Shown: one piece after another, positions 1 to 21,591 of the stretch
Layout of the letters: each line of letters opens with the position of its first letter
Position numbering within the stretch: position 1 is the stretch's first letter
Assembly: GCF_002494345.1 (NCBI RefSeq)
Contig: NZ_NXNI01000001.1
Span: 806,001 to 870,000, forward strand
DNA length: 64,000 nt
Direction of reading: 5' to 3'
DNA from: Natrinema ejinorense
Lineage (GTDB): Archaea; Halobacteriota; Halobacteria; Halobacteriales; Natrialbaceae
Position numbers and translations under genes: made by a program
Notes under the pieces: model-generated
What the model was told of the DNA's origin: nothing
Seen by the model: only the letters and a program-made list of their open reading frames with translations
Databases searched by the model: none

Positions 1-53
1 TTCCGAACGTGTTCGGGAAGAACGGGAGGGCCGTCCGGGCCAAACCTCGAACC

Positions 54-1436
54 ATGAACGGAATACCTGGCGGGTTACGGACCGACCAGCAGCCGCCGAT
101 GGTGATCCCGTTGCGGCACTTCCTCCTCGCGCTGGGATTTCTCGCCGTCGGAATCGGTGGCGGGACCGTGATGGCCGTAACGACGCTCCCCGGACGCCCG
201 GGGCTGGCACACCTCCACGTGTTGCTCGTGGGCTGGATTGCGGTGACGATCATGGGTGCGATGACCCAGTTCGTCCCCGTCTGGTCGGGCGTGACGATAT
301 ACTCGCGACGGGTGGCAGTCGCACAACTGTGGCTCGTCACCGTCGGACTGGCCGGCTTCGGGGCAGCGTTACTCGCCGGCGCGCTCGAGTGGCTCCCGGT
401 CGGCGCTACGCTCATGCTCACCGGGATCTGGCTCTTCGTCTACAACGTCGGACGAACCCTCGCACGCGCACGCCCGTTCGGCTTCACGGAGCGACACTTC
501 GCGCTCGCGCTCGCGTGTTTCGCCCTCGTCGCACCGTTCGGGCTCCTGCTGGCGATCGACTTCACGACGCCGGTGTTCGAGTCGCTGCCGGTGTCCCGGT
601 TCGACCTCCACCTCGCTCACGCGACGCTCGCGCTGTTCGGTGCCGTGTTCGCGACGGTCGTCGGGGCGCTCTTCCAGCTCGGGAAGATGTTCACCCAGGC
701 GGAGCCCGACCGGCACAGCGACCGGTTGCTCGCCCTCGAGCAACTCTGTTTCCCCGCCGGGCTCGTCGCGCTCGCACTCGGCCGAGGCCTGACCGTCGAG
801 CCGCTGGCGCGGGCCGGCGGGATCGCCTTCCTCCTCGGACTCGCGGCGTTCGCGGTCGTGATCGGGCGGCTACTGGCCGGGGCGACCGTCGAACGGTCCC
901 CCATGCTCGTTCGCTACTGGGTCGTCGTCGCGGCGCTGGTCACGTGGGTCGTCCTCGCCGCACCGACGTGGTGGGCCGACCCGCTCACGTACGAATCGCT
1001 GTTCGGCCATCCCGACGCACAGGCGCTGTTGTTGCTCGGCGTGTTCGGCTTCGTCGTCATCGGCTCGCTCTACCACATCGTCCCCTTTATCATCTGGATC
1101 GAGCGCTACAGCGATCGGCTCGGGTTCGAACAGGTCCCGATGATCGACGACCTCTACGACGACCGGCTCGAGCGGGCGGATTTCTGGGCGACGCTCGCCG
1201 GGTTCGCCGGCCTCTCGGTGGCACCGCTGATCGGGGCTCCCGCCGCCGTGGTCACCGCGAGTCACGTCCTCGCGACGGTCGGGATCGCGCTGTTCATCGC
1301 GAACACCCTGCTGACGATCCACCGCCACGGGCCCGACGGGATCGGCGGCGTACTCGTGAGCGCACTCGAGTCGAGCGAGGAGACGCCCCCTGCGGGTAGT
1401 GGAGAGCCAGACGTCGACGTCTCGCCCGAGCAGTAA
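54..1436 (+). CDS. Heme-copper oxidase subunit I-like membrane protein
   Basis: The 460-residue protein is almost entirely hydrophobic, with about twelve predicted membrane segments and an acidic C-terminal tail. Histidine-bearing segments such as GLAHLHVLLVGW, DLHLAHATLALFG and GSLYHIVPF are spaced as in cbb3-type cytochrome oxidase subunit I and its non-catalytic or NO-related relatives. A role in heme binding or respiration is therefore inferred; an active oxidase is not shown, because no subunit II or III gene is nearby. The ATG at 54 is preferred over an upstream GTG at 9 because the extra residues are basic and unlike the family, and ATG 102 is also possible. A convergent gene at 1681-2895 encodes a second protein of the same general type. 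Confidence 0.6.
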   Translation: MNGIPGGLRTDQQPPMVIPLRHFLLALGFLAVGIGGGTVMAVTTLPGRPGLAHLHVLLVGWIAVTIMGAMTQFVPVWSGVTIYSRRVAVAQLWLVTVGLAGFGAALLAGALEWLPVGATLMLTGIWLFVYNVGRTLARARPFGFTERHFALALACFALVAPFGLLLAIDFTTPVFESLPVSRFDLHLAHATLALFGAVFATVVGALFQLGKMFTQAEPDRHSDRLLALEQLCFPAGLVALALGRGLTVEPLARAGGIAFLLGLAAFAVVIGRLLAGATVERSPMLVRYWVVVAALVTWVVLAAPTWWADPLTYESLFGHPDAQALLLLGVFGFVVIGSLYHIVPFIIWIERYSDRLGFEQVPMIDDLYDDRLERADFWATLAGFAGLSVAPLIGAPAAVVTASHVLATVGIALFIANTLLTIHRHGPDGIGGVLVSALESSEETPPAGSGEPDVDVSPEQ

Positions 1437-1496
1437 CCGCGGGCTCGAGCCTGTCTCTCACCTGCTTATCGGGGGAGGCGTCACCGCTGGTCGTAG

Positions 1497-1680
1497 CGCT
1501 GGGAGTCGATCGGCTCGTTCTGCTACCTCGCACACGGACGCAACGAGGCCGCGTTCCCCGACGCGGACGTGCTCTGGGCCATCGTCGGAGCGGTCGTCCT
1601 CGTCTCCCTCGTCGTCCACGGGATCACCGCGACGCCGGCCGTCCGCTGGCTCGACACGGGCGGAGTCATAGCCCGCGTCG
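1497..1680 (+). pseudogene. C-terminal remnant of a CPA1-type cation/proton antiporter
   Basis: Frame +3 holds an open stretch of about 60 codons that reads like the last two segments of an NhaP-type Na+/H+ antiporter: a glycine-serine-phenylalanine segment (IGSFCYLAHG), then ADVLWAIVGAVVLVSLVVHG and ITATPAVRWLD. Intact antiporters have about 400-600 residues before this point. Here a stop codon at 1494 lies directly upstream and no N-terminal part is found in the preceding 60 bases. The open frame simply runs into the antisense of the next gene. This is a decayed gene end rather than a functional protein. Confidence 0.6.
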
Positions 1681-2895
1681 TCATCTCGCACGCTCGAGAA
1701 AGATCGTCCAGAGGACGCCGGCATAGAGGGTCGCACCGAGCACCGAGAGCCACCGTCCCGTCCCGACGAGGGGTGGAACTGCACTGAGCGATCCGACGAC
1801 GGCGGATCCCAGGCCGGCGACGAGCGCGACGACCGACGCCCTCGCAGTTCGGTCTCCGATACCGGGGACGGAGGCGACGGCAGGTGGATAGAAGTGGTAG
1901 GTGACGCCGACGATCGTCAGCGCGAGGAAGCCACCGACGGCCAGCCGGTAGTGGGCGTCGAACGCAGTCGCGGGAACGCTCGAGGCGGGCAGGAACGCGA
2001 ACGTCAGGCCGAGCGCCGCGACCAGGAGCCCGGAGGCCGCCCCGGCGAGTATCGCCCAGCCGCCGACGCGTCGGCGATCGGTTTGCCGATGGAATCCGAC
2101 GACGGCGACCCCGAAGCCGACGAGCGCGGTCGCCTGGAGCCCGGCACCGACGCGAAACAGCGATCCGCTACGGAAGTCGACCGCGAGCAGTGCGGGACCG
2201 ACGATTCCGGCACCGACGACGAGGGAAACCAGCAGGGGGTTCACCGAGGCGACCAACAGCCGCGGTAACAGCCGAAACCCGATCGCGAACACGAGCAGTG
2301 CGGCCGTTCCGGCCGCGAACACGTGGGTCACCGCCGGCCCGGTCGTCGGAAGTCCCGGCGGCTCGAGGCCGAGTTCGCCCGCAATCGACAGCGACGCGCC
2401 GACGAGCAGGTACGCGAACACGACGGGAAGGGCGGCGTTCGCGATTCGATCGACTCGTTTGCGGTGGGTCTCGGTCGCGCCCGTGCCGGTTTCTCGCCCC
2501 GCCGGATTATCCCGGACGGTCCAACCGAGGACGGCGACGAAGACGAGGCAGCCGACGAGCCAACTCGTCGCACTCGCGGCCCCGAGTATCGGCGGTCCGA
2601 GTCCCACACCGGCCGCGAACGCACCGATCGTTCCGACCAGTGCAAACGGAAGGTGGACCGCCGGTGCGCGCGGAACGGCCAGTTCACGCGCGAAGTACGA
2701 CGGGACGAGCGTGTACGCCTTCCCGAAGACGACGTGGAGGACGAACCCGAACACGCCGAGGGGAACGGTCGCCGCTCGCGACAGGCCCGTCGCGACGGCG
2801 ACCTGCCACGCGAGGAAGAAGCCGACGCCGACCGCGACGAACGCGCGCGACCAGCGCGTGACGGTTGCGGTCGCGTTTCCGGGCCCAGTCGCCAT
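1681..2895 (-). CDS. Polytopic membrane protein, heme-copper oxidase-like
   Basis: The protein has 404 residues and about eleven predicted membrane helices. Conserved-looking histidines lie in FGFVLHVVFGKAYTLVP, AVTHVFAAGTAALL and VGVTYHFYPPAV. This pattern recalls the cbb3/NnrS-like branch of the heme-copper oxidase fold and resembles the protein of the convergent gene at 54-1436. It starts three bases after the stop of the gene at 2899-3477, so the two are probably co-transcribed. Catalytic function cannot be claimed: no clear Cu-ligand set or partner subunit is visible. The family assignment rests on general topology and His-containing segments. Confidence 0.55.
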   Translation of the reverse strand: MATGPGNATATVTRWSRAFVAVGVGFFLAWQVAVATGLSRAATVPLGVFGFVLHVVFGKAYTLVPSYFARELAVPRAPAVHLPFALVGTIGAFAAGVGLGPPILGAASATSWLVGCLVFVAVLGWTVRDNPAGRETGTGATETHRKRVDRIANAALPVVFAYLLVGASLSIAGELGLEPPGLPTTGPAVTHVFAAGTAALLVFAIGFRLLPRLLVASVNPLLVSLVVGAGIVGPALLAVDFRSGSLFRVGAGLQATALVGFGVAVVGFHRQTDRRRVGGWAILAGAASGLLVAALGLTFAFLPASSVPATAFDAHYRLAVGGFLALTIVGVTYHFYPPAVASVPGIGDRTARASVVALVAGLGSAVVGSLSAVPPLVGTGRWLSVLGATLYAGVLWTIFLERAR

Positions 2896-2898
2896 CGA

Positions 2899-3477
2899 TC
2901 AGAACGGGGAGTGCACGGTCGTTTCGTCGCCCTCCTGCCCGGCAGCCCCCGGCCCGCTGCCGGCCGGCTCGCTCGGTACCTCGCCGGACTCGCGGTACTG
3001 GCTCTCGAGTCGCTCGAGCGTCTCGTTGAGGTGCTCGGACTGGTGGTGGGTCGACCGAACGCGGACGCGGACGAGTTCGTACTCGTGGCGATCGCTCAGG
3101 CCGTTCCACGCCCGAAACGATCCCTTGACGAGCGCGTCGGCCTGCGGACAGAACTCCGTCGTCGGACTGAACTCCGCCCGGAGCACGGTCGGATCGTCGG
3201 CGTCGACCGCATACCGGTATCCCGCGTCGGGATGGCGACGATCGAGATTGAGCCGCGCCAGGTTGTAGCCGAACGTCGCGTCGTAGACGCCCCGTTCCTC
3301 GAACAGCTCCTGGGTAACCTCGTGGAAGGCGACGTGATCGTCACCCTCGAGGACGTCGTGCCCCTCGAGGAACGACCCTGGCTCCGGGATGTGTGCGGGT
3401 TCGAACGCCGTCAACTGGTCGAAGCCACCCTCGCCGTCGCCCGCCGCCGTCGAACGTCCGCCCGAAAACGGATTCAT
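2899..3477 (-). CDS. Conserved haloarchaeal protein, divergent MIP18/DUF59-like
   Basis: The protein has 192 residues from ATG 3477; an alternative ATG lies at 3525. It is soluble and acidic. The segment FSPTTEFCPQADALVKG, followed about 35 residues later by STHHQSEHLNETLE, lines up in order and spacing with the conserved core of MIP18/DUF59 iron-sulfur assembly proteins (PT-x3-C, then THxSE-x2-N-x2-L). That match was made by eye and is an inference. The next gene, 3 bases downstream, is a heme-copper-oxidase-like membrane protein, so a role in maturing a respiratory metalloprotein would make sense. The C-terminal 25 residues are low complexity. Confidence 0.55.
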   Translation of the reverse strand: MNPFSGGRSTAAGDGEGGFDQLTAFEPAHIPEPGSFLEGHDVLEGDDHVAFHEVTQELFEERGVYDATFGYNLARLNLDRRHPDAGYRYAVDADDPTVLRAEFSPTTEFCPQADALVKGSFRAWNGLSDRHEYELVRVRVRSTHHQSEHLNETLERLESQYRESGEVPSEPAGSGPGAAGQEGDETTVHSPF

Positions 3478-3773
3478 TGTACGTCGAGCAACGGCCCGGA
3501 TTCCCCAGTAGCTCGTCCCGAACATGTGCCCCCATTCGTCAATCGGCCCCCGATTACCGCGAATTCCCGTTCGCTTCGGACACAACCGCTCGTTTCGCCT
3601 CGACTGTCTATCCTTGAACAGTTTTTGATTTCGTGAATGAAATAAGATCATAGAAAAATCTATGTAAAATAAATACTCTGATGTATATATTTGGTGTCCA
3701 ATGCTCATAAGTGGCGTCCAAGCTCGGATTGGGGCCAGAGGATTTATACTGGATCAAAGAAAGAGTCCGGCCA

Positions 3774-4055
3774 ATGCTACTCTCAGCCGATCGGTCGGAA
3801 TCAGCAGATGGGCAGTCTATCAGCTTCAACGTAATCGCTGCGATCGCCGAACAGGAAGGCGTCGATCCCGTCGATCTCGAGCCGCCGGAATACGATGCCC
3901 TCTACGAGAGCATCAACCCCGAAGCACTCGACTCGCTCTTCGAGACTCGAGCGAACGGTCACCAGCGACCGACTGGTCGCGTCGAGTTCCCGTTCTGTGG
4001 CTACGATGTCGTCGTCACGAGCGACGGGGAGGTCGATGTCTCCGGTCCCGAGTAA
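3774..4055 (+). CDS. HalOD1 output domain protein
   Basis: The 93-residue protein matches the halobacterial output domain 1 pattern: a helix of the type ISFNVIAAIAEQEGVDPVDL, then YESINPEALDSLF, then a beta hairpin VEFPFCGYDVVVTSDGEVDV. HalOD1 proteins are small stand-alone or fused domains associated with haloarchaeal signalling, and their molecular function is not known. The ATG at 3774 starts directly before the domain. A GTG at 3711 would add 21 residues unlike the family. The upstream 150 bases are AT-rich and hold several TATA-like stretches (around 3650-3700), consistent with its own promoter. Confidence 0.75.
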   Translation: MLLSADRSESADGQSISFNVIAAIAEQEGVDPVDLEPPEYDALYESINPEALDSLFETRANGHQRPTGRVEFPFCGYDVVVTSDGEVDVSGPE

Positions 4056-4527
4056 GACGCCTGCCGTCGGTCGATTCGCGTTCGCCACGCCGCGGGAGCC
4101 GATCGAACCCCGTCCGTTTCCGGACCGGCGAGCAACGGGGCGGCCCGTACCGTCGCCGCGTTCCCCGTCGGCGCGGCTCTCGTACTCGGTCTCGATCGAC
4201 GAAATATCGCGGCCATCCTCGGCGCATCAGTGTCGTTGAACGGCAGTGAACGCCCGCTCGCGGACCGGCGGCAACACCGAGGCCGGCCAGCAGCGACAGT
4301 GCGGCCATCGTTTCAACGACCACCAGCGGCCTCCAGCACCTGCTTGAGGGCGGTCGCGTCGATTGCGTCGTCGACGTCCCGCAGCTCGCTGTCGCGAAGC
4401 CGACCGTCGACGATCTCGCGGCCGTCGTCGTCCGCGGACGGGTGCGGACAGCAGTCTCGGTCGATGACCGAGACGCAGCGAACTCTCGGGCCGGTCGGGG
4501 CGCTCTGAACGACCGGTCCCGGGCCGC
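4056..4527. other. Intergenic region with a possible decayed small gene
   Basis: No complete gene is visible. On the minus strand, 4313-4480 carries about 55 codons with typical haloarchaeal usage, including SVIDRDCCPHPSADDDG and ALKQVLEAAGGR, ending in TGA. However, it has no ATG, GTG or TTG between the coding-looking part and the upstream nuclease gene. Just past its stop, a short hydrophobic frame begins at 4305 (MAALSLLAGLGV) and would need a frameshift to continue sensibly. Both look like 5'-truncated or frameshifted remnants. Confidence 0.3.
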
Positions 4528-5280
4528 TCAGTCGCCCCTCGTGGCCGCTTCGAACACGTTCTCGTGGAGTCGGTCCGCGACGATCTCCATCAACGGTTCC
4601 ATGTTGCGCGTGTCCGCCCGATTGTACTCGACGAGCGTCTCGAGGGAGCGCTCGTCCCCGCGTTCGTACTCGTGCCAGAGACGTACCGCGTCCCGCCCGC
4701 TGATGTCTGGCATGTCGCGGTCGATACCGAGGTCTTTCTCGATCGCTTTTAGGCCCCCGTCGAGCCCCAGTTTCTTGCAGGGGTACATGAGGTCGACGTG
4801 TGGGAGATCGACGTCGACGTCGAAACACGTCTCCAGGAAGGGGACGTCGAAGCGCTGGCCGTTGAACGTGACGAGCAGCGCCGACTCGGCGAGTTCGCGC
4901 TCGAGGCGCGCCGCCGTGAGATCGCGCCCCTTGACGAAGGTCTTCGTTTCGCCGGTACGATGCAGGCTTACGGTCGTCACGTCGTTCGACGCGGCGTCGA
5001 GTCCGGTCGTCTCGATGTCCAGAAAGCACGTTTCGTCGCTGACGTTCTCGTAACACCGCCAGCGGCTCGAGGCGGGTAACGCGTCCGCGAAAACGGAGAC
5101 GTCGCCGCGCTCGAGATGGGTCCAGCCCTCGTCGATGAAGTCCTCGATACGGTCGGCCAGCGTCGACCCGACGACGCTGCCGTCGAACTCGTCCCAGTGC
5201 GTAATGCCGTTCTCCCACAGGCGTCGTTCGGTGGTTTCCCCAACGCCGCGGACGGGAATGAAACTGTTCTCGATTCGCAC
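4528..5280 (-). CDS. YprB/MrfB-like RNase H-fold nuclease
   Basis: The 250-residue protein has a helix-hairpin-helix-like N-terminus (IPVRGVGETTERRLWENG), then a DEDD exonuclease-type domain. Exo I is DIETTGLDA near residue 88, Exo II is TFNGQRFDVPF near residue 138, and Exo III is YNRADTRNM near residue 218. These place it in the YprB ribonuclease H-like family, whose Bacillus member MrfB is an exonuclease in DNA repair. The acidic metal-binding residues are all present, so it is probably an active 3'-5' nuclease. It stands alone; a longer relative with the same domain lies at 37981-39666 beside an MrfA-like helicase. Confidence 0.8.
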   Translation of the reverse strand: MRIENSFIPVRGVGETTERRLWENGITHWDEFDGSVVGSTLADRIEDFIDEGWTHLERGDVSVFADALPASSRWRCYENVSDETCFLDIETTGLDAASNDVTTVSLHRTGETKTFVKGRDLTAARLERELAESALLVTFNGQRFDVPFLETCFDVDVDLPHVDLMYPCKKLGLDGGLKAIEKDLGIDRDMPDISGRDAVRLWHEYERGDERSLETLVEYNRADTRNMEPLMEIVADRLHENVFEAATRGD

Positions 5281-5366
5281 ACCAGTGCAGGGGAACGGGG
5301 TGAGTAAAAACGCTTGGATCGGCCGTCATCGACTCGGTTTCCGCGATCCGATCGGCCCTGAACGTG

Positions 5367-6032
5367 TTAGAGTTCGATCCAGTCGGTGGTCGTATCCGCG
5401 TCCCGGAGGTGCCACCGCTGTTCGTCGGTCCCGTTCCGGGACCGAACCGTGACGACGGCATCGAACATCGGCTCGAGGAGATTGACGGCGTCGTGATCGG
5501 CCGCGAGCGGCAGGTGATAGTGGCCCATTCCACACGCCCGTGTGACGCGGGCCGTCATCACGTGGAGCAGACGAAACACCGTCTCGGCATCGTACGCTCG
5601 GAGCAGGGGAACCATCGAGTCGACACAGACGCGAAGCTCCGACGGCTCGAGGCCGTCGGCGGCATCGGCGAACTCGTCGATCGTCTCGATGATTTCGATT
5701 CCGAGCGTTCCCAGCGGTGGCTGCCCGCTCTCCGTTCGGGTGTTCGCTCCCGCCTCGAGTACTGCGCTCGAATCGATCGTGTGTGTCCGCTCGCCCGCGG
5801 CAGTTTCGGTCCGTTCGCAGGCGACGTGGTCGTCCGCGCTCGTGACGAACAGGCGGTACCGAGAATCGCGTTTCGCTGCCCCGAGCAGTTGTTGACAGGC
5901 CGTCTCGTGTGTACCCGCCGCCGCGCCAACGAGCAAAACGTTGCTCCCCTCCCGCTTGAGTGCGTCCAGCGTTCGCGCGAACGTCGCGCGATCGGACACG
6001 ACTCCCCCTTGCTCGTCTTCCATTCGTGTCAT
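5367..6032 (-). CDS. DUF7504 family protein, degenerate RecA/KaiC-like fold
   Basis: The 221-residue haloarchaeal protein has a RecA-like outline: a strand and turn SNVLLVGAAAGTHETACQQL where a Walker A loop would be, and later CVDSMVPLLRAYDAETVFRLLHVM resembling a Walker B strand plus helix. The Walker lysine is missing (GAAAGTHET), so nucleotide hydrolysis is unlikely. The family number DUF7504 is from memory. Such proteins are common in haloarchaeal signalling neighbourhoods, and a HalOD1 protein lies 1.3 kb away. The start may be 6032 or the second ATG at 6023. Function is unknown. Confidence 0.65.
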   Translation of the reverse strand: MTRMEDEQGGVVSDRATFARTLDALKREGSNVLLVGAAAGTHETACQQLLGAAKRDSRYRLFVTSADDHVACERTETAAGERTHTIDSSAVLEAGANTRTESGQPPLGTLGIEIIETIDEFADAADGLEPSELRVCVDSMVPLLRAYDAETVFRLLHVMTARVTRACGMGHYHLPLAADHDAVNLLEPMFDAVVTVRSRNGTDEQRWHLRDADTTTDWIEL

Positions 6033-6161
6033 CGGTCAGCCGGAATCAGTATAAAAATTGTGGCTACAATCAGATCCGAAAAGATGTCTCCGATCGGGAC
6101 GGTTCCCTCGCGTCGTCCACCCGATCGTCCGGTTTTTCACACCAGCGATCGTAGGGTGGAT

Positions 6162-6887
6162 ATGGCCGATCAGGACGACGAACTCGTCGACGCCGTTCGC
6201 GAGCTGGCACGGACGATCGACGCCCTCCGGACGGAACTCGAGGGATCGCGCCCGCGCCGCAGGCCGCCGCTCCGACCGCCAACTCCCCGTGAACTGCTTC
6301 GATTTACCGACGACGTCGCGCTGCCGGCCACACTGGCCGTCCTCGAGACGAGCGTCCGCGCGCTCGAGGCGTTCCAGCGGAGCCTGAAACTCCTCCGAAC
6401 CGAGCGAGAGGCCCGTGACCGAACGACGGCAGCCGCCGAGACGACCAGCGAGCGCGCGACCGAACTCCGCCGAACGACGCTCTCCCAGCTCGACACCGTC
6501 CTCGCAGAGCTCCAGCGGGCCGCGTCGGGGGACGGACTGCCGGCCAACGAACAGGCGCGTGACCTCCTCGAGGAGGCGCGTGAACTCCGCGACGACGTGG
6601 ACACCCGCCTTCGGAACGCCGCTGACCGCGAACGGGAGGCGACGGATCAAGACCGAACGACATCCGAGAGGAGCGTCACGATCGATATCGAAGAGGGGCT
6701 GCCGATGGACTCGGGGACGGACGATGACGACGCCGATCCGGCCGTCGACGTCGACGCCGAACTCGAGACGCTTCGGGATCGGTACGCCGACGCGGACGAC
6801 GACGGCCCGCACGAGGACGAGGGCGACGAATCAGTGACGGACGATGGCGGAGCGGATGACGGCGGAAGCGATCCTGACGAGAGTTGA
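6162..6887 (+). CDS. DUF7547 family protein
   Basis: The 241-residue soluble protein starts at the ATG at 6162, 129 bases after the divergent DUF7504 start. It has a helical N-terminal part (DDELVDAVRELARTIDALRT), a proline-rich linker with PPTPRELLRFTDDVALPATL, a long helical or coiled-coil middle (residues about 80-165), and an extremely acidic tail rich in Asp and Gly. This order matches the haloarchaeal family remembered as DUF7547. No catalytic motif is visible. The tail suggests a soluble cytoplasmic protein, and nothing is known about its role. Confidence 0.65.
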   Translation: MADQDDELVDAVRELARTIDALRTELEGSRPRRRPPLRPPTPRELLRFTDDVALPATLAVLETSVRALEAFQRSLKLLRTEREARDRTTAAAETTSERATELRRTTLSQLDTVLAELQRAASGDGLPANEQARDLLEEARELRDDVDTRLRNAADREREATDQDRTTSERSVTIDIEEGLPMDSGTDDDDADPAVDVDAELETLRDRYADADDDGPHEDEGDESVTDDGGADDGGSDPDES

Positions 6888-6999: not shown

Positions 7000-7407
7000 T
7001 TATACCGGCTCGAACCGGTACCCGTCCCACTCCTGGCTCTCGGGCTCTCTGATGCCCGCGCCGGGTTCGCGGAGTTCGTCGACGTGGACGGGTCGGATCG
7101 TATCGCCCGTTTCGACGTCGCCGGTCGTCAGCTGGCCGATCGCCCGGACCGACTGTCCCTCACCGTCGGACCCGGTCCGGCTGCTCGAGGCGTCGTCCGA
7201 CGCTTCGCCGATGTCGAACTCGACGATCGCGAGGTGGTTCGGTTCGCGGACGCCCGGCGGCGTCGCGGTGCTGGTCGTCCAGGTGACGATCTTCCCGGTA
7301 TACTCGCTGAGATCGATCGTTTCGACCGGCTCCGCGCCGCCGGGTCCACACGGATGACCGGGGTAGCTGATCGTTCCGTCCTCGTAGCGTGTCGCCTCCA
7401 GTGTCAT
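7000..7407 (-). CDS. Beta-ketothiolase OB-fold (DUF35) subunit, copy 1
   Basis: The 135-residue protein is the small subunit of a two-subunit thiolase. The OB-fold core is clear (GKIVTWTTSTATPPGVREP, LAIVEFD, VRAIGQLTTGDVETGD). The N-terminal zinc ribbon typical of DUF35 proteins has been lost: the region reads ISYPGHPCGPGG, with one Cys instead of four. Its start codon overlaps the stop of the thiolase gene by four bases (ATGA), so translation is probably coupled. Relative to copy 2 it carries an insert of about 16 residues (around EASDDASSSRTGSDG). By analogy with other thiolase-DUF35 pairs it likely shapes the acyl-CoA site of the complex. Confidence 0.8.
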   Translation of the reverse strand: MTLEATRYEDGTISYPGHPCGPGGAEPVETIDLSEYTGKIVTWTTSTATPPGVREPNHLAIVEFDIGEASDDASSSRTGSDGEGQSVRAIGQLTTGDVETGDTIRPVHVDELREPGAGIREPESQEWDGYRFEPV

Positions 7408-8561
7408 TGTGCAGCCTCCATGATTGTCGTGATCACGCAGTTGCCAAAGCCGCCGACGTTACAGCACAGCCCCACGTCCGCCTCGACCTGTCGCGGGCCG
7501 GCCTCGCCGACGAGTTGTTCGTAAATCTCGACGCCCTGGGCGACGCCGCTGGCACCCAGCGGGTGCCCCTTCGACTTGAGGCCACCTGAGGTGTTGGTCG
7601 GCAACTCGCCGTCGCGTTCCGTGTATCCCTCCTCGACGAGCGTCCAGGCCTCGCCCTGCCCGGCGAAGCCCAGTCCCTCCATCTGGAGGAACTCGAGGAT
7701 GGTGAACATGTCGTGGAGTTCGGCCACGTCGATGTCGTCTGGACCGTAGCCGCTCATCTCGTAGGCACCTTTGCCGCTTTCGACGACGCCCCCCATCACG
7801 GTCGGATCCTCGCGTTCGTGGACCACCTGCGTGTCGGTCGCGCCGTCGACGCCCGAAACGACCGCGTAGGTGTCGGTATACTCCCGTGCGACTGACTCGG
7901 GACAGAACAGCAACGCCGCCGAGCCGTCCGTGATCGGACAGAAATCGTACAGCCGTAGCGGGTCGGCGACGATCGGCGACTCCAGGATCGTCTCGAGGTC
8001 GACTTCCTTCTGGAACTGCGCGTGGGGATTGTCCACGCCGTTCCTGTGATTCTTGACCGCAACCTTCCCGAGGCTCTCGCGAGAGGCGTCGAATCGCTCG
8101 AGGTAGTGACGCGCCGTCAGCCCGGCGAAGGACGGCAACGTCACACCGTGTTTGTATTCGACCGGGTGCGTCACCGAGGCGATGATATCCGTCGTCTCGG
8201 CGGTCGACCGATGCGTCATCTTCTCGCCGCCGACGAGCAGGGTCATGTCGCTGGCCCCGCTTGCGATCGACTGCCAGGCGGCGTAGATCCCCGCCCCGCC
8301 GCTCGCGCTCGTCTGGTCGACGCGCTGCGTGTACGCCGGCATGCCACCGAGGTCGTGGACCAGCGCGTTCATCACGCCCGTCTGTCCCTCGAACTCGCCG
8401 CTCGTCATGTTCGAGACGTACAGGTGGTCGAGGTCGTCCGCGGCGACACCTGCATCCTCGAGACACTCGATCCCCGCTTCCGCGAGGAGATCCACGATCC
8501 ACGCGCCCTCGCGTCGTCCGAACTGGGTCATCGAAGCGTCGATGATCGCAACACGTTCCAT
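7404..8561 (-). CDS. Haloarchaeal-type beta-ketothiolase catalytic subunit, copy 1
   Basis: The 385-residue protein has the thiolase fold of the SCP-x/archaeal type. The active-site loop reads RVDQTSASGGAG, so the usual nucleophilic Cys is Ser. Candidate histidines lie in ELHDMFTILEF and KGHPLGASG. The Gly-rich end is CCNVGGFGN. A Ser-His-His set has been reported for the two-subunit beta-ketothiolases of Haloferax mediterranei (recalled, not checked). The reaction is condensation or cleavage of acyl-CoA and acetyl-CoA, relevant to polyhydroxyalkanoate precursors or fatty/branched acid breakdown. A TATA-like stretch at 8600-8608 lies upstream. This copy and the one at 9090-10247 are close paralogues. 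Confidence 0.85.
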   Translation of the reverse strand: MERVAIIDASMTQFGRREGAWIVDLLAEAGIECLEDAGVAADDLDHLYVSNMTSGEFEGQTGVMNALVHDLGGMPAYTQRVDQTSASGGAGIYAAWQSIASGASDMTLLVGGEKMTHRSTAETTDIIASVTHPVEYKHGVTLPSFAGLTARHYLERFDASRESLGKVAVKNHRNGVDNPHAQFQKEVDLETILESPIVADPLRLYDFCPITDGSAALLFCPESVAREYTDTYAVVSGVDGATDTQVVHEREDPTVMGGVVESGKGAYEMSGYGPDDIDVAELHDMFTILEFLQMEGLGFAGQGEAWTLVEEGYTERDGELPTNTSGGLKSKGHPLGASGVAQGVEIYEQLVGEAGPRQVEADVGLCCNVGGFGNCVITTIMEAAQ

Positions 8562-8733
8562 ATATGCTGAACCCTCTGCCGATGGCTGACCACGAACGCC
8601 GATTTAAAACTACGGGGGAAACCCACTCAACGAATCCGACACACCGACCGACGCTCTTCTCGAGGTGGGGTTCAGCGATCGGCGCAGACGGCTGTCAGGG
8701 GTGATCAGGAGCGATCCGGCAGTCGGCGACGGC

Positions 8734-9093
8734 TTACACCGGCTCGAACCGGGACCCGTCCCACTCCTGGCTCTCGGGCTCTCTGATGCCCGCACCGGGT
8801 TCACGGAGTTCGTCGACGTGGACGGGCCGGACCTCGTCGCCGGTTTCGACATCGCCGGTGGTCAGTTGACCGATCGCGCGGACCGACTCACCCTCGACGT
8901 CGAACTCGACGATCGCGAGGTGGTTCGGTTCGCGGACGCCCGGCGGCGTCGCGGTGCTGGTCGTCCACGTGACGACCTCGGCGGTGTACTCGCTGAGATC
9001 GACCGTTTCGACCGGCTCCGTGCCGCCAGGGCCGCGCGGGTGGCCGGGGTAGGTAATCGATCCGTCGTCGTAGCGCGTCGCTTCCATGGTCAT
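8734..9093 (-). CDS. Beta-ketothiolase OB-fold (DUF35) subunit, copy 2
   Basis: The 119-residue protein is the partner of the thiolase at 9090-10247, with the same four-base ATGA overlap. The OB-fold strands match copy 1 almost residue for residue, while the mid-domain insert of copy 1 is absent. The zinc-ribbon region (ITYPGHPRGPGG) has no cysteine at all, so metal binding there is excluded. Both copies end in the same EPESQEWDG segment. It is probably required for thiolase activity or stability rather than catalytic itself. Confidence 0.8.
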   Translation of the reverse strand: MTMEATRYDDGSITYPGHPRGPGGTEPVETVDLSEYTAEVVTWTTSTATPPGVREPNHLAIVEFDVEGESVRAIGQLTTGDVETGDEVRPVHVDELREPGAGIREPESQEWDGSRFEPV

Positions 9094-10247
9094 TGTGCAG
9101 CCTCCATGATGGTCGTAATCACGCAGTTTCCGAAGCCACCGACGTTACAGCACAGCCCCACGTCCGCCTCGACCTGTCGCGGGCCGGCCTCACCCATCAG
9201 CTGTTCGTAGATCTCGACACCCTGGGCGACACCACTCGCACCCAGCGGATGCCCTTTGGACTTGAGACCGCCCGAGGTGTTGATCGGCAACTCGCCGTCG
9301 CGTTCCGTGTAGCCGTCCTCGACGAGCGTCCAGGCCTCGCCCTGCTCGGCAAAGCCCAGTCCCTCCATCTGGAGGAACTCGAGGATGGTGAACATGTCGT
9401 GGAGTTCGGCCACGTCGATGTCCTCCGGGCCGTAACCGCTCATCTCGTAGGCTCCCTTGCCGCTCTCGACGACGCCCCCCATCACGGTCGGATCCTCGCG
9501 CTCGTGGACGACGTGGGTGTCCGTCGCGCCGTCGATCCCCGAAATAACGACGTAGTCGTCCGTATACTCCGCAGCGACGGATTCCGGACAGAGCATGAGT
9601 GCCGCCGAGCCGTCCGTGATCGGACAGAAGTCGTACAGCCGCAACGGGTCGGCGACGATCGGCGACTCCAGGACCGTCTCGAGGTCGACTTCCTTCTGGA
9701 ACTGGGCGTGAGGGTTGTCGACGCCGTTCCTGTGGTTCTTGACTGCCACCTTCCCGAGGCTCTCCCGGGGCGCGTCGAACCGCTCGAGGTAGTGACGCGC
9801 CGTCAGCCCGGCGAAGGACGGCAGCGTGACGCCCGTCTTGTACTCGACGGGGTGGGTCAGCGACGCGATGACGTCGGTGGCTTCCCCGGTCGTCTTGTGG
9901 GTCATCTTCTCGCCGCCGACGAGCAGGGTCATGTCGCTGGCCCCGCTTGCGACCGACTGCCAAGCGGCGAAGATCCCCGCCCCGCCGCTCGAACTCGTCT
10001 GGTCGACTCGCTGCGTGTACGCCGGCATCGCGTCGAGGTCGTGAGCCAAGGCGTTGGGCACGCCGGTCTGGCCCTCGAACTCGCCGCTCGCCATGTTCGA
10101 GACGTACAGATGCTCGACCGCGTCGGCCTCGACACCCGCATCCTCGAGACACTCGACGCCAGCCTCGGCGAGGAGGTCCTGGATCCACTCCCCTTCCCGC
10201 TGCCCGAACTGGGTCATTGAAGCGCCGATGATTGCAACACGTTCCAT
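9090..10247 (-). CDS. Haloarchaeal-type beta-ketothiolase catalytic subunit, copy 2
   Basis: The 385-residue protein is a paralogue of copy 1 and identical to it at roughly nine residues in ten by eye. The nucleophile loop is RVDQTSSSGGAG, again Ser in place of Cys, and ELHDMFTILEF and KGHPLGASG are conserved. Differences are scattered, for example FCPESVAREY versus LCPESVAAEY, and lie mostly at surface-type positions. The start at 10247 matches the first residues of copy 1 (MERVAII). An ATG at 10259 would add four residues. A TATA box at 10271-10280 gives an almost leaderless transcript for this pair. Confidence 0.85.
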   Translation of the reverse strand: MERVAIIGASMTQFGQREGEWIQDLLAEAGVECLEDAGVEADAVEHLYVSNMASGEFEGQTGVPNALAHDLDAMPAYTQRVDQTSSSGGAGIFAAWQSVASGASDMTLLVGGEKMTHKTTGEATDVIASLTHPVEYKTGVTLPSFAGLTARHYLERFDAPRESLGKVAVKNHRNGVDNPHAQFQKEVDLETVLESPIVADPLRLYDFCPITDGSAALMLCPESVAAEYTDDYVVISGIDGATDTHVVHEREDPTVMGGVVESGKGAYEMSGYGPEDIDVAELHDMFTILEFLQMEGLGFAEQGEAWTLVEDGYTERDGELPINTSGGLKSKGHPLGASGVAQGVEIYEQLMGEAGPRQVEADVGLCCNVGGFGNCVITTIMEAAQ

Positions 10248-10270
10248 ATCCCAAGGCACTCAGGTCAGCG

Positions 10271-16794: not shown

Positions 16795-17613
16795 CTAGTT
16801 GAGAATGCTCTGGGCGACCGTCGCGAGCTGGCCGTTGTCGGCCTCGCTGAGTCGGTCGTCGCCGATCTTGAGACGCAGGCGCGGGCGGCCGACGTCGATC
16901 GGGACCTTTTCGGTGTCGATCAGGCCCATGTCCTCGAGTTTGGTCTTCGTCCGGGAGAACGTGGCCTTCGAGGCGATGCCGACGTCTTCGCCCCACTTGC
17001 TGATGTCGTAGAGCAGCGCCTCGTTTTTGGCTGCGACGAGCAGCGAGATGGTGACCTCGTCGAGCCCGTTGCCGTCCCCGCGAGCGGTTTCGAGGGAGTT
17101 GAGGATCGCGGTGAAATCCGCCTCGGCTTCGGGACTGATCTCGTCGGCGAGGGTTTCGCGGACGTCCGTAATCGGGGGTGTCCGAAGGTTGAATTCGGTG
17201 GCACCGTCCCAGCGACCGGCGTAGGTGTCGAAGGTGTCCGCGACGAAGCTCTCGTCGTCGGTGATCAACCCGCCAACGCGGTCGCCGGCGTGGACGATGG
17301 CGATCACGCGATCGTCGCTGACCAGCAGCGAGTTTTCGGGTGCTTCCTCGAGCGTTCGCATCGCGAGTGCGCCCTCGCTGATGAGATCGGCCGCGTTCGA
17401 GGCGACGATGAAGTCGTCCATGACGTCTTTCAGGGTTCGTTCGTCGGCGAGCATGTGGACCGACGGCAGTTCCCCGTCGAACGCCGTCGCGACGGCGACG
17501 AACTCTTCGATGGCGTCCGCAGACGGGTTGACCATATATACGTCACCGGTCGCGTCCTCGAGCATGGAGTCGAGGATATCGTCAATCTGATGGTTTAGTA
17601 AATTCGAGGTCAT
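16795..17613 (-). CDS. tbsP: Transcriptional regulator TbsP
   Basis: The 272-residue protein matches the haloarchaeal TbsP family, a regulator named for its link to the sugar regulator TrmB. The long N-terminal domain holds MVNPSADAIEEFVAVATAFD and DVMDDFIVASNAADLISEGA. A C-terminal winged-helix DNA-binding domain follows (YDISKWGEDVGIASKATFSR, then KTKLEDMGLIDTEKV and a basic wing GRPRLRLKIG). In Haloferax-type archaea TbsP is thought to act in the switch between glycolysis and gluconeogenesis; that role is from memory. The gene stands alone, with an AT-rich promoter about 30 bases upstream and a strong hairpin downstream. Confidence 0.85.
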   Translation of the reverse strand: MTSNLLNHQIDDILDSMLEDATGDVYMVNPSADAIEEFVAVATAFDGELPSVHMLADERTLKDVMDDFIVASNAADLISEGALAMRTLEEAPENSLLVSDDRVIAIVHAGDRVGGLITDDESFVADTFDTYAGRWDGATEFNLRTPPITDVRETLADEISPEAEADFTAILNSLETARGDGNGLDEVTISLLVAAKNEALLYDISKWGEDVGIASKATFSRTKTKLEDMGLIDTEKVPIDVGRPRLRLKIGDDRLSEADNGQLATVAQSILN

Positions 17614-18063: not shown

Positions 18064-20199
18064 TTATCGATCGAACCGGCGACTCAATTCTTTCGACCAG
18101 TAGATGTCGCCATCGTAGATAACTGAGGCCTCCGTTTCTTCGAGCATCGTCGCGAGTTCCGGCTCGGTAAGCGTAAAGCTCGATTCGTTGCCACAGAGGA
18201 AGGCATACTCGTTGGTTTCGGTGTGGGGAAAGTAGTACGAGCCGGTGACTCGCGTCGAGTAGCAATCGAGTGTCAGTAGATACTGCGGTTCGCTCCCGAC
18301 GTCATCGAGTTCCTCGAGTGTGGCGGTCGTCGGAAAGGGGGTCTCGCCCTGTGTGAGCGAGTGGGTGCCGTCGCCGACGACGGCGTAGTCTTTGCCCATC
18401 ATGATCCGTCTGCGGGCAAGTCCCATGGCTCGTTCGATACTGAAGCCGTGAACGAGCAGTTTGGCGAACGTCGAGCCGACCTTGACGGCGTGGTCGTTCA
18501 GGACTTTCGTGAACGTGACGGCACCGGCGACGCTACCTTTTTGGATCAGTCCCATCCCTTCGTAGAACGAGCCACAGGCGTTCAGGAAGAACGTCTGGGC
18601 GTTACAGCGTTCGAGGCTCGAGGTCGAAAGCGTGCCGTCGGGACAACACAGCCCGTCGGTCTCGCAGTGACCGATGTAGTGGACGAAGTCGTGGTCGTCC
18701 TCGAAAACGCGGGCGAGTGCGGCCGTGTCGAGCGATTCCGCCACGGTGACGTCCATCGACAGTTCGTCGGAGCGTTGGTGATAGATTTCGGCGACGTCGT
18801 CGTGTTCGCCGGCCATCTCCGGATCGTTCAGGACGACACAGATCGAGGTCGAATCGCTCGTCCGTTCGAGGAAGTTCAGACGGTTGTGATAGGCCTCGGG
18901 GGTGGACTTGAAGACATCGATCGGGACGCCATCGGCGAGCCAGCCGTGGGTTCGGCCGTTCCGGAGTCCTGGTTTGACGATGTCGACCGAGGCGACCTGT
19001 CCGGTGCTCGCTCTGTTCGGGTCAGACGGCCGTCCGCTTGCGGTCTTGAGTCCGGGATCACCACCCCGATAGAAGTCCGCGAGCGAACGTTCGACCAGTT
19101 CCTGGCCCTCGAGTTCCGAGGTCTGGGGCGTGTAGATCATGCTCAGCCGATCGAGCAGGAACGGGAGCGTCTCGACGCTGTCGTAGGCAGGAGTGACGTA
19201 CGTCGAGAGATGCCACTCCGGAAGCCGGTGTTTGATCGCCGCGTAGGGGACGTCGAGGTAGGTCGCGAGCCGATCCTGGGGGGTGGCGTCGTACAGCGCG
19301 TTGGCATCGAGCTCGAGTGCGTCGAGCAGGCTGTACTCCGAGAGGGTCGTTCCGTACGGGCCGACGTTACGGACGAGACAGTCGAGGAAGAAGGTCTTCC
19401 GGAGCAACCGTTCGACGTCGCGCTCGAGTTCGGGCATCGGCGCGAGTCGCTCCTCGATCGCGTGATCGGCGAGTCGGAGTCGGGGCCGGGCGTGATCCGT
19501 CCCGGCTCCCGTCGCCGTCGTCCGCACGGTTGCCTGCAGATAGTACGCCAGCGGCGCAGTCACGAACAGCGACTCGTAGTCCGGCGGGACGACCAGTTCG
19601 ATCCCGTGATCGGGGGTATCGGACCGAATACAATCCGGGATCTCGAGGGTATCGCCGTGCTCGATCAGTGACGGGTGGCCCCGAAGCGTGGGGTACGATC
19701 GGTCCGGTCGCTCCGTTTTGTGTGAGGCAGCCATCCGCGTAATGGCCTCGGCGATGGCCGAGGGGGAGTCGGGGACGGTGATCGTCCCGGCGGGGAACTC
19801 GTGACGACAGCGGACGCCGAGGATGACGCGCGTTCGGTCCGGAAAGGAGACGACGATCTCCTCGTAATCGTCGGTCTTTCGGATCGTTGCGGAGCCGGAG
19901 AATCGAAGGTAGGACTTGATCTCCGTGTCGATGTCGATGACGTACTCGTCGGGGGACAACGAGAGCGGTTCCCCAGTGGGGTCGAGTTCGTACTGATCCT
20001 CGAGGCCGAGGGAGAACGCGTAGACGACCGCGTGCGGGAACCGGAGTTCGTCAGTCGTCAGAACGATCGTGTCGTCGACCGGCCGCGAGATGTCGACGCC
20101 GGAGCCGTCGACGACGAGTTCGTCACCGGAGACCGTTAGCTCGGCGTTGTCCGCATCAGTGACGTGGAGAGTGTCGCCGTCTACCGCCCACTCTATCAT
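18064..20199 (-). CDS. CHAT-domain putative cysteine protease
   Basis: The 711-residue protein's last 230 residues match the CHAT (caspase-like) fold. A catalytic His lies in DFVHYIGHCETDG near residue 507. A catalytic Cys lies in TFFLNACGSFYEG near residue 541. The usual following segment is present too (SVAGAVTFTKVLNDHAVKVG, then FAKLLVHGFSIERAMGLARR). The first 450 residues form a beta-rich region and helical segments I do not recognise, presumably a sensing or substrate part. No signal peptide or membrane helix is seen, so it is cytoplasmic. It is transcribed divergently from glyA with no obvious partner gene. Bacterial CHAT proteases act in cell-death and defence systems; the function here is unknown. 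Confidence 0.75.
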   Translation of the reverse strand: MIEWAVDGDTLHVTDADNAELTVSGDELVVDGSGVDISRPVDDTIVLTTDELRFPHAVVYAFSLGLEDQYELDPTGEPLSLSPDEYVIDIDTEIKSYLRFSGSATIRKTDDYEEIVVSFPDRTRVILGVRCRHEFPAGTITVPDSPSAIAEAITRMAASHKTERPDRSYPTLRGHPSLIEHGDTLEIPDCIRSDTPDHGIELVVPPDYESLFVTAPLAYYLQATVRTTATGAGTDHARPRLRLADHAIEERLAPMPELERDVERLLRKTFFLDCLVRNVGPYGTTLSEYSLLDALELDANALYDATPQDRLATYLDVPYAAIKHRLPEWHLSTYVTPAYDSVETLPFLLDRLSMIYTPQTSELEGQELVERSLADFYRGGDPGLKTASGRPSDPNRASTGQVASVDIVKPGLRNGRTHGWLADGVPIDVFKSTPEAYHNRLNFLERTSDSTSICVVLNDPEMAGEHDDVAEIYHQRSDELSMDVTVAESLDTAALARVFEDDHDFVHYIGHCETDGLCCPDGTLSTSSLERCNAQTFFLNACGSFYEGMGLIQKGSVAGAVTFTKVLNDHAVKVGSTFAKLLVHGFSIERAMGLARRRIMMGKDYAVVGDGTHSLTQGETPFPTTATLEELDDVGSEPQYLLTLDCYSTRVTGSYYFPHTETNEYAFLCGNESSFTLTEPELATMLEETEASVIYDGDIYWSKELSRRFDR

Positions 20200-20343: not shown

Positions 20344-21591
20344 ATGAACCACGACAAGGTTCGGGACGTCGATCCCGCCGTCGCCGACGCCCTCGAGGCC
20401 GAGGTAGACCGCCAGCGAGAGACGTTACAGATGATCGCCAGCGAGAACCACGCAAGCGAGGCGGTCATGGACGCGCAGGGCAGCGCCCTGACCAACAAGT
20501 ACGCCGAGGGCTACCCCGGCGAGCGCTACTACGGCGGTTGTGAGTACGCCGACGAGGTCGAGCAACTCGCGATCGACCGCGCCACGGAACTGTTCGGTGC
20601 CGACCACGTCAACGTCCAGCCCCACTCGGGCACGCAGGCCAACCAGTCGGTCTACTTCGCGATGCTCGAGCCCGGCGACAAGATCCTCTCGTTGGATCTC
20701 AACCACGGCGGCCACCTCAGTCACGGTCACCCGGCGAACTTCACGGGGCAGCTCTACGAGGTCGAACAGTACGAGGTCGACCCCGAAACGGGCTACATCG
20801 ATTACGACGACCTCGCGGACCACGCCGCCGAGTTCGATCCCGACATCATCGTGTCGGGGTACTCCGCATACCCGCGCGAGATCGAGTGGGAGCGGGTTCA
20901 GGCGGCCGCCGACGACGTCGACGCGCTCCACCTCGCGGACATCGCCCACATCACCGGGCTCGTCGCCGCCGGCGTCCACCCCTCGCCGGTCGGCGTCGCC
21001 GACTTCGTCACCGGCTCGACTCACAAGACCATCCGCGCCGGCCGCGGCGGGATCGTCATGTGCGACGAGGAGTACGCCGACGACATCGACGCCGCCGTCT
21101 TCCCCGGCGGCCAGGGCGGCCCGCTCATGCACAACATCGCCGGCAAGGCCGTCGGCTTCAAGGAAGCCCTCGAGCCCGCGTTCGAGGACTACGCCGAACA
21201 GACGGTCGCGAACGCCCAGGCGCTGGGTGACTCCCTCGCCGAGAACGGCCTCTCGCTGGTCTCGGAGGGGACCGACAACCACCTCGTGCTCGTCGATCTG
21301 CGCGAGAGCCACCCGGATACGTCCGGCGGCGACGCCGAGGATGCCCTCGAGGAGGCCGGTATCGTCCTCAACGGCAACACGGTGCCCGGCGAGACGCGTT
21401 CGCCGTTCAACCCGAGCGGAATCCGTGCCGGCACGCCGGCACTGACGACCCGCGGGTTCGACGAGAACGACTGCCGGACGGTCGGTGACCTGATCGCCCG
21501 CGTCGTCGACGCCCCCGAAGACGAGGCCGTCATCGAGGAGGTCCGCGCCGAGGTCGACGACCTCTGCGACGCCAACCCGCTCTACGAGTAG
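20344..21591 (+). CDS. glyA: Serine hydroxymethyltransferase
   Basis: The 415-residue PLP enzyme interconverts serine and glycine with a (tetrahydro)folate-type carrier. Diagnostic segments are LQMIASENHASEAVMDAQGS, NKYAEGYPGERYYGG, NVQPHSGTQANQSVYF, the PLP-lysine motif TGSTHKTIRAGRGG, and GQGGPLMHNIAGKAVG. The length and start (ATG 20344) fit the family. folD lies 1.1 kb downstream in the same orientation, so the two one-carbon steps are physically linked. thyA and folA, which use the same cofactor pool, lie 20 kb further on. Confidence 0.95.
   Translation: MNHDKVRDVDPAVADALEAEVDRQRETLQMIASENHASEAVMDAQGSALTNKYAEGYPGERYYGGCEYADEVEQLAIDRATELFGADHVNVQPHSGTQANQSVYFAMLEPGDKILSLDLNHGGHLSHGHPANFTGQLYEVEQYEVDPETGYIDYDDLADHAAEFDPDIIVSGYSAYPREIEWERVQAAADDVDALHLADIAHITGLVAAGVHPSPVGVADFVTGSTHKTIRAGRGGIVMCDEEYADDIDAAVFPGGQGGPLMHNIAGKAVGFKEALEPAFEDYAEQTVANAQALGDSLAENGLSLVSEGTDNHLVLVDLRESHPDTSGGDAEDALEEAGIVLNGNTVPGETRSPFNPSGIRAGTPALTTRGFDENDCRTVGDLIARVVDAPEDEAVIEEVRAEVDDLCDANPLYE

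Follow-up and report, generated by a model that had tools for sequence, protein, structure and literature searches.

A widespread and largely unannotated family of CHAT-like proteases in haloarchaea

A single open reading frame in the 64-kb window (the whole stretch of DNA analysed here) raises the question of whether haloarchaea encode a caspase-like protease of their own and, if so, whether it serves in defence or in a process shared by the whole class. In the current analysis the gene has been compared with its homologs, its predicted fold with known structures, and its locus with those of its relatives. The comparison reveals a real family of CHAT-like proteins, widespread in haloarchaea and largely unannotated. 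The window protein is probably a caspase-fold cysteine protease, as judged from its structural model, and the protease activity itself is one that we infer. It is a good candidate for a protease of cell signalling. The features of the locus are collected in the table.

Table. Features of the CHAT-like protease locus (positions in the window; domains of the protein are given as predicted)
Feature	Position	Strand	Basis
CHAT-like protease gene (type A)	18064..20199	-	711 aa + stop codon, single ORF
N-terminal beta-sandwich, residues 1-134	19798..20199	-	AlphaFold2; weak supersandwich likeness, Z at most 7.6
Middle alpha/beta module, residues 145-335	19195..19767	-	AlphaFold2 and signature residues
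Flexible length-variable linker, residues 362-407	18979..19116	-	pLDDT <50; gap-rich in alignment
Caspase-fold (CHAT) catalytic domain, residues 448-616	18352..18858	-	VIA-align match to SAVED-CHAT 8tl0
Predicted catalytic His511 codon	18667..18669	-	Invariant in type A; after strand 505-509
Predicted catalytic Cys542 codon	18574..18576	-	Invariant in type A; after strand 536-540
C-terminal alpha+beta domain, residues 620-711	18067..18342	-	AlphaFold2; recognisable also in type C
glyA (serine hydroxymethyltransferase), conserved upstream divergent neighbour	20344..21591	+	Pfam SHMT 1.4e-151
tbsP (transcriptional regulator), conserved downstream neighbour	16795..17613	-	NCBIfam equivalog TransRegTbspHalo 5.7e-123

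The catalytic dyad and its predicted fold

The first-pass annotation of this DNA had recognised both the His and the Cys of a caspase-like CHAT domain, and the homologs bear this out. In the translation of the ORF at 18064-20199 the two lie in the motifs HYIGHC (residues 507-512) and NACGS (residues 540-544). A set of 74 haloarchaeal loci was fetched, the aligned members of which are 39-86% identical to the window protein. H511 and C542 are identical in 75/75 aligned proteins of type A, the type to which the window protein belongs, and the Cys is thus the opposite of the poorly conserved residue for which the annotation had allowed. Both residues are also identical in 130 family members of a wider alignment, down to about 20-25% identity, and since the dyad persists to such a distance the two motifs are no chance occurrence. 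N540 and D459 are likewise invariant in type A, and the mean identity within this type is 70% in residues 446-616 vs 42-56% elsewhere. Of 75 homologs, at least 97% keep the start Met and W4, which supports the start of the 711-residue protein. A third cysteine, C519 (window 18643-18645), lies eight residues past the catalytic His and is invariant in types A, B and M, while C512 is invariant in type A only; a redox or structural role is possible for them.

Standard libraries give little information on the protein. No match was obtained for it in Pfam, NCBIfam, PADLOC or the PDB sequences, a PDB profile search with the family returned a single chance match (E 0.57), and 18/56 homologs match the Pfam CHAT family PF12770 weakly, with a best E of 1.9e-05. 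Some plasmid relatives carry the public annotation 'CHAT domain-containing' or 'caspase family protein'. A literature search retrieved no paper on this protease family or on HVO_2861-2863. No membrane or export segment was seen in the window protein, whose maximum 19-residue hydropathy is 0.96.

An AlphaFold2 model of the full-length protein, built on an alignment of 56 sequences (pLDDT 83.5, pTM 0.84), has a caspase-type fold with strands at residues 451-457, 482-488, 505-509, 536-540, 558-562 and 605-609. H511 follows the third of these strands and C542 the fourth, with a small beta section between them. Clan CD of cysteine peptidases is defined by a catalytic His after strand 3 and a catalytic Cys after strand 4 (PMC4357240), and the predicted placement, which the annotation had proposed to check by structure prediction, is the arrangement of this clan. 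Many chains of clan CD are matched, with Z from 17.4 to 11 in VIA-align and a Foldseek E of 1.6e-07. The top PDB match is the SAVED-CHAT protease 8tl0 (Z 17.4, rmsd 2.3, 168 residues), followed by gingipain, separase, DdvA and TPR-CHAT/Csx29.

Several of the clan CD matches align already from residue 328-337 or so of the window protein, the segment that corresponds to the inactive caspase-like subdomain of gingipain, separase and Csx29. The front left unexplained is therefore about 335 residues long and not 450, as had been estimated at first. That the N-terminal region is unusual was correctly noted, and the C-terminal domain had been missed.

Each of the known systems resembles the window protein in part. 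SAVED-CHAT, an ancillary protease of type III CRISPR, has the closest catalytic domain, but its CHAT part alone aligns, no SAVED match is found among those listed, and the window protein is not accompanied by a CRISPR locus. Csx29 (TPR-CHAT, of the type III-E CRISPR Craspase) shares a large front followed by a two-part caspase region with a His/Cys dyad (Z 11.6-12.6 over residues 337..612). It differs in having TPR repeats, where the model predicts a beta-sandwich and an alpha/beta module, and the haloarchaeal protein is chromosomal and class-wide, with neither a CRISPR array nor a Cas7-11 neighbourhood. Separase (C50) and gingipain (C25) pair an active with an inactive caspase-like subdomain (Z 12-17 over about 328..618), and in gingipain RgpB, too, helix 1 begins with an acidic residue; identity to them is only about 9-15%, the model of the archaeal protein lacks the helical repeats of separase, and the protein showed no membrane or export segment. 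DdvA (8rw5/8rot), a transmembrane anti-sigma factor, has a similar caspase-like region (Z about 16), unlike the haloarchaeal protein in being anchored in the membrane.

Front modules and paralogs with a decayed protease site

Residues 1-362 were also folded separately, with a pLDDT of 90.8, and a fold search with this model gave no confident known fold. The N-terminal part (1-134) resembles sugar-mutarotase-like and YidC-like sandwiches (Z at most 7.6) and residues 136-361 resemble Cwp8 (Z 7.0); a Z of about 7 is the background level, common for unrelated pairs. A sugar-sensing role of the front was considered and dropped, the mutarotase-like match lying only at background Z. No SAVED sensor domain appears among the matches listed for the N-terminal model. 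The middle module has a characteristic signature comprising R167..P170..R173..P176, L217..Y220..A223, D273..R277 and P327-W329.

The tree and the neighbourhoods separate the family into types A, B, C and M. Type B comprises paralogs with an intact site in varied places; members found beyond the class Halobacteria make up type M. Type C is a single clade of ten loci (L107-L116, e.g. L116 4016-6202; support 100), mostly of one genus (g30), whose members have lost the His, the Cys, N540 and G510. They keep R167, P170, R173, P176, L217, Y220, D273 and R277, and mostly W329; P170, R173, L217, Y220, A223, D273, R277 and W329 are largely common to types A, B, M and C. The type-C proteins match the family profile mainly over about 34-350. 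The possibility that proteins matching only this part carry a different effector was rejected, as profile comparison showed their C-terminal half to be a decayed CHAT domain followed by the C-terminal domain (hhalign E 4.4e-11). On these sequence grounds the type-C proteins are classed as pseudoproteases. Type-C loci share neighbours only among close relatives. At four of them (L107 1777-2706, also L108, L109 and L114) a divergent TbsP-family regulator is encoded within a few genes of the type-C gene, that of L107 matching Pfam HTH_TbsP_C at 2e-17.

The dyad has been lost separately in a tandem pair (L122) and in one of the four type-M proteins (L117). The L122 stretch (1-6589) encodes three family members in tandem, one of them cut by the end of the fetched stretch, and in the two complete copies the His is replaced by E and the Cys by P. 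Another family member (L123 3197-4821) is broken into two frames that overlap, and its gene is apparently decaying.

As the front signature is kept in at least three lineages with a decayed protease site, the front probably has a function apart from catalysis, and a module selected without its protease presumably binds something. The front is thus presumed to bind a ligand or a partner, which is a guess in view of N-terminal fold matches at background level. The earlier idea of the front as a sensor or regulatory module is supported independently by the dead paralogs, which have kept its signature. Members of at least three lineages persist after loss of the dyad, and one could suppose on this basis that type A, too, uses its caspase fold as a scaffold or a platform for binding. 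Such a non-proteolytic role is exceedingly improbable, given that the dyad and the core around it are the most conserved part of type A, in which H511, C542, N540 and D459 do not vary.

Distribution, the glyA-tbsP locus and the question of defence

A profile search identifies the family in 365/391 genomes of Halobacteria, most of them with two copies. Type A is present in about 230/391 genomes by our own tally of the profile-search rows with a best E <1e-185; an exact DNA motif was also tried as a marker of this type and discarded, as it undercounts (131/391). Beyond Halobacteria the family occurs in four genomes of one other family (f19) among the matches listed in the phylum sample. All four of these type-M loci (L117-L120) lie near genes for a DnaG-like primase, an acetyltransferase and a UPF0146-like small protein (names assigned by eye). 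Paralogs are also encoded on haloarchaeal megaplasmids (25 PLSDB records).

The window genome has two family members. The second copy (L076), of type B and 35% identical, lies between the genes of a Cdc6-like AAA ATPase and a VCA0040-like membrane protein, the latter undecaprenyl phosphate translocase-like. This setting is not repeated at other type-B loci, and no conserved neighbours emerged among them. Elsewhere in the window (7000-10259) a thiolase gene is duplicated in tandem, the copies being 90% identical, each with an adjacent small partner gene that is OB-fold-like.

Type A occupies a fixed place, between a divergent glyA upstream and, in the same orientation, tbsP downstream; tbsP is there in 89/94 type-A loci (69/74, and 20/20 newly sampled over eight family labels). 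This constancy, the TbsP-family paralogs near four type-C loci and the precedent of CHAT proteins controlling transcription (Csx29-Csx30) raise the possibility that the protease cleaves the metabolic transcription factor TbsP or is regulated with it. The gap between the type-A gene and tbsP is, however, mostly 200-500 bp, which gives no clear operon, and most genomes that lack type A still have TbsP. Among 19 genomes in which both glyA and tbsP are present and type A is absent, the two genes are adjacent and divergent in 12, at a distance of 129-766 bp. Type A either occupies the gap between glyA and tbsP or has disappeared from it. The stability of the pair without type A points clearly to vertical inheritance and away from a defence gene carried by an island, and does not make TbsP a proven partner; the fixed locus could also reflect no more than slow rearrangement at this place. 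The weight initially given to the glyA-CHAT-tbsP order as a sign of a functional tie was accordingly lowered after the 19-genome comparison, and a partnership with TbsP is distinctly unlikely. The search for conserved neighbours proposed in the first-pass annotation has thus yielded a fixed position for type A, yet the flanking pair persists without it.

The CHAT domain is a common effector of defence systems. An antiviral or abortive-infection protease, in which the front senses infection and CHAT kills or arrests the cell, was the framing first given to this gene, and it would agree with the SAVED-CHAT CRISPR protease as best fold match, with the paralogs on megaplasmids, and with the pseudoprotease and tandem copies (L122), which suggest diversification. 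This framing has not found support. The family is near-universal in the class, and type A occupies one housekeeping site on the chromosome, among glyA, tbsP and other housekeeping genes. PADLOC gives no match for the window protein and one marginal match (0.013) among 56 homologs, its matches to ten nearby genes being partial and to generic domains. No relatives were found in phage records and viral contigs. The 64-kb window holds no CRISPR-like repeat array, in agreement with the earlier remark that no CRISPR locus is near. Presence throughout the class, a fixed site and the lack of any match to defence systems or viruses all speak against a role as defence effector, which we consider unlikely for the family; if there is such a role, the copies on plasmids and in tandem are its likeliest carriers. 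There is no evidence so far for a virus-defence or cell-death enzyme.

Expected cleavage specificity, the Haloferax member and a proposed mechanism

D459 is situated just before helix 460-477 (helix 1). This residue is D in 40/40 type-A proteins, D or E in 25/25 of type B and 4/4 of type M, and S in 6/10 of type C. In gingipain RgpB the Asp163 that binds Arg in P1 is located in helix 1, and the Asp-specific caspases have a conserved Arg in the S1 pocket (PMC4357240). In the region of L1 and helix 1 no Arg is invariant and D459 is the invariant residue, its placement in S1 following from topology. An acidic D459 and the lack of a conserved Arg lead us to expect Arg or Lys in P1, and with low confidence we suggest that cleavage after Arg/Lys is likelier than after Asp in the modelled site.

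All of the 15 sampled genomes of one genus (g43) hold exactly one family member, of type B by score. We take this genus to be Haloferax, several of its genomes encoding a DHFR that is 90-93% identical to that of H. volcanii. The Haloferax copy that was examined (L127) keeps HYIGH and NAC. Extracts of H. volcanii possess a caspase-like LEVD/VEID/IETDase activity with a preference for Asp in P1, for which no gene homologue is known (PMC3615174), and the family might be, or be related to, its source, as the first-pass annotation had proposed for the window protein. That proposal is weakened by the finding that Haloferax encodes only the paralog B and not the window type, by the acidic D459, which fits Arg/Lys in P1, and by reports of caspase-like activity in archaea far outside the range in which the family was found (PMC3615174). 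We regard it as improbable.

Csx29 provides a precedent (PMC10028731): it is switched allosterically via its non-catalytic part, signals from beyond the active CHAT domain bringing its His and Cys into line, and it makes one cut in its substrate, an inhibitor of a sigma factor. By analogy, the window protein may be a cytosolic single-polypeptide cysteine protease of the caspase/separase fold under allosteric control. The front beta-sandwich and alpha/beta module would bind a ligand or a partner, and binding would realign H511 and C542 in the CHAT domain. The active CHAT domain would then cleave a regulatory protein, or a few of them, with Arg/Lys as the probable residue in P1, as D459 suggests. 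Ligand sensing, activation, substrate, specificity and role are those that we infer. To this reading, in which the protease is inherited throughout the class and serves in regulation or the stress response under allosteric control, rather than as a defence-island effector, we give an even chance.

Metazoan caspases have pseudo-caspase regulators. A wider, ligand-gated system can be imagined for the class, in which the active types A and B share their sensor with dead paralogs acting as decoys or regulators and the Haloferax member underlies the caspase-like activity; we consider this very improbable.

Haloarchaea have a reported caspase-like activity and stress responses with no known gene. 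The allosteric class-wide protease favoured here would belong to a family whose clan CD site is intact in most members of the class, and which the standard family libraries miss in the case of the window protein. Two features of the family are of value in this respect: each Haloferax genome sampled has one copy only, and the decayed paralogs allow what the front module does to be separated from catalysis.
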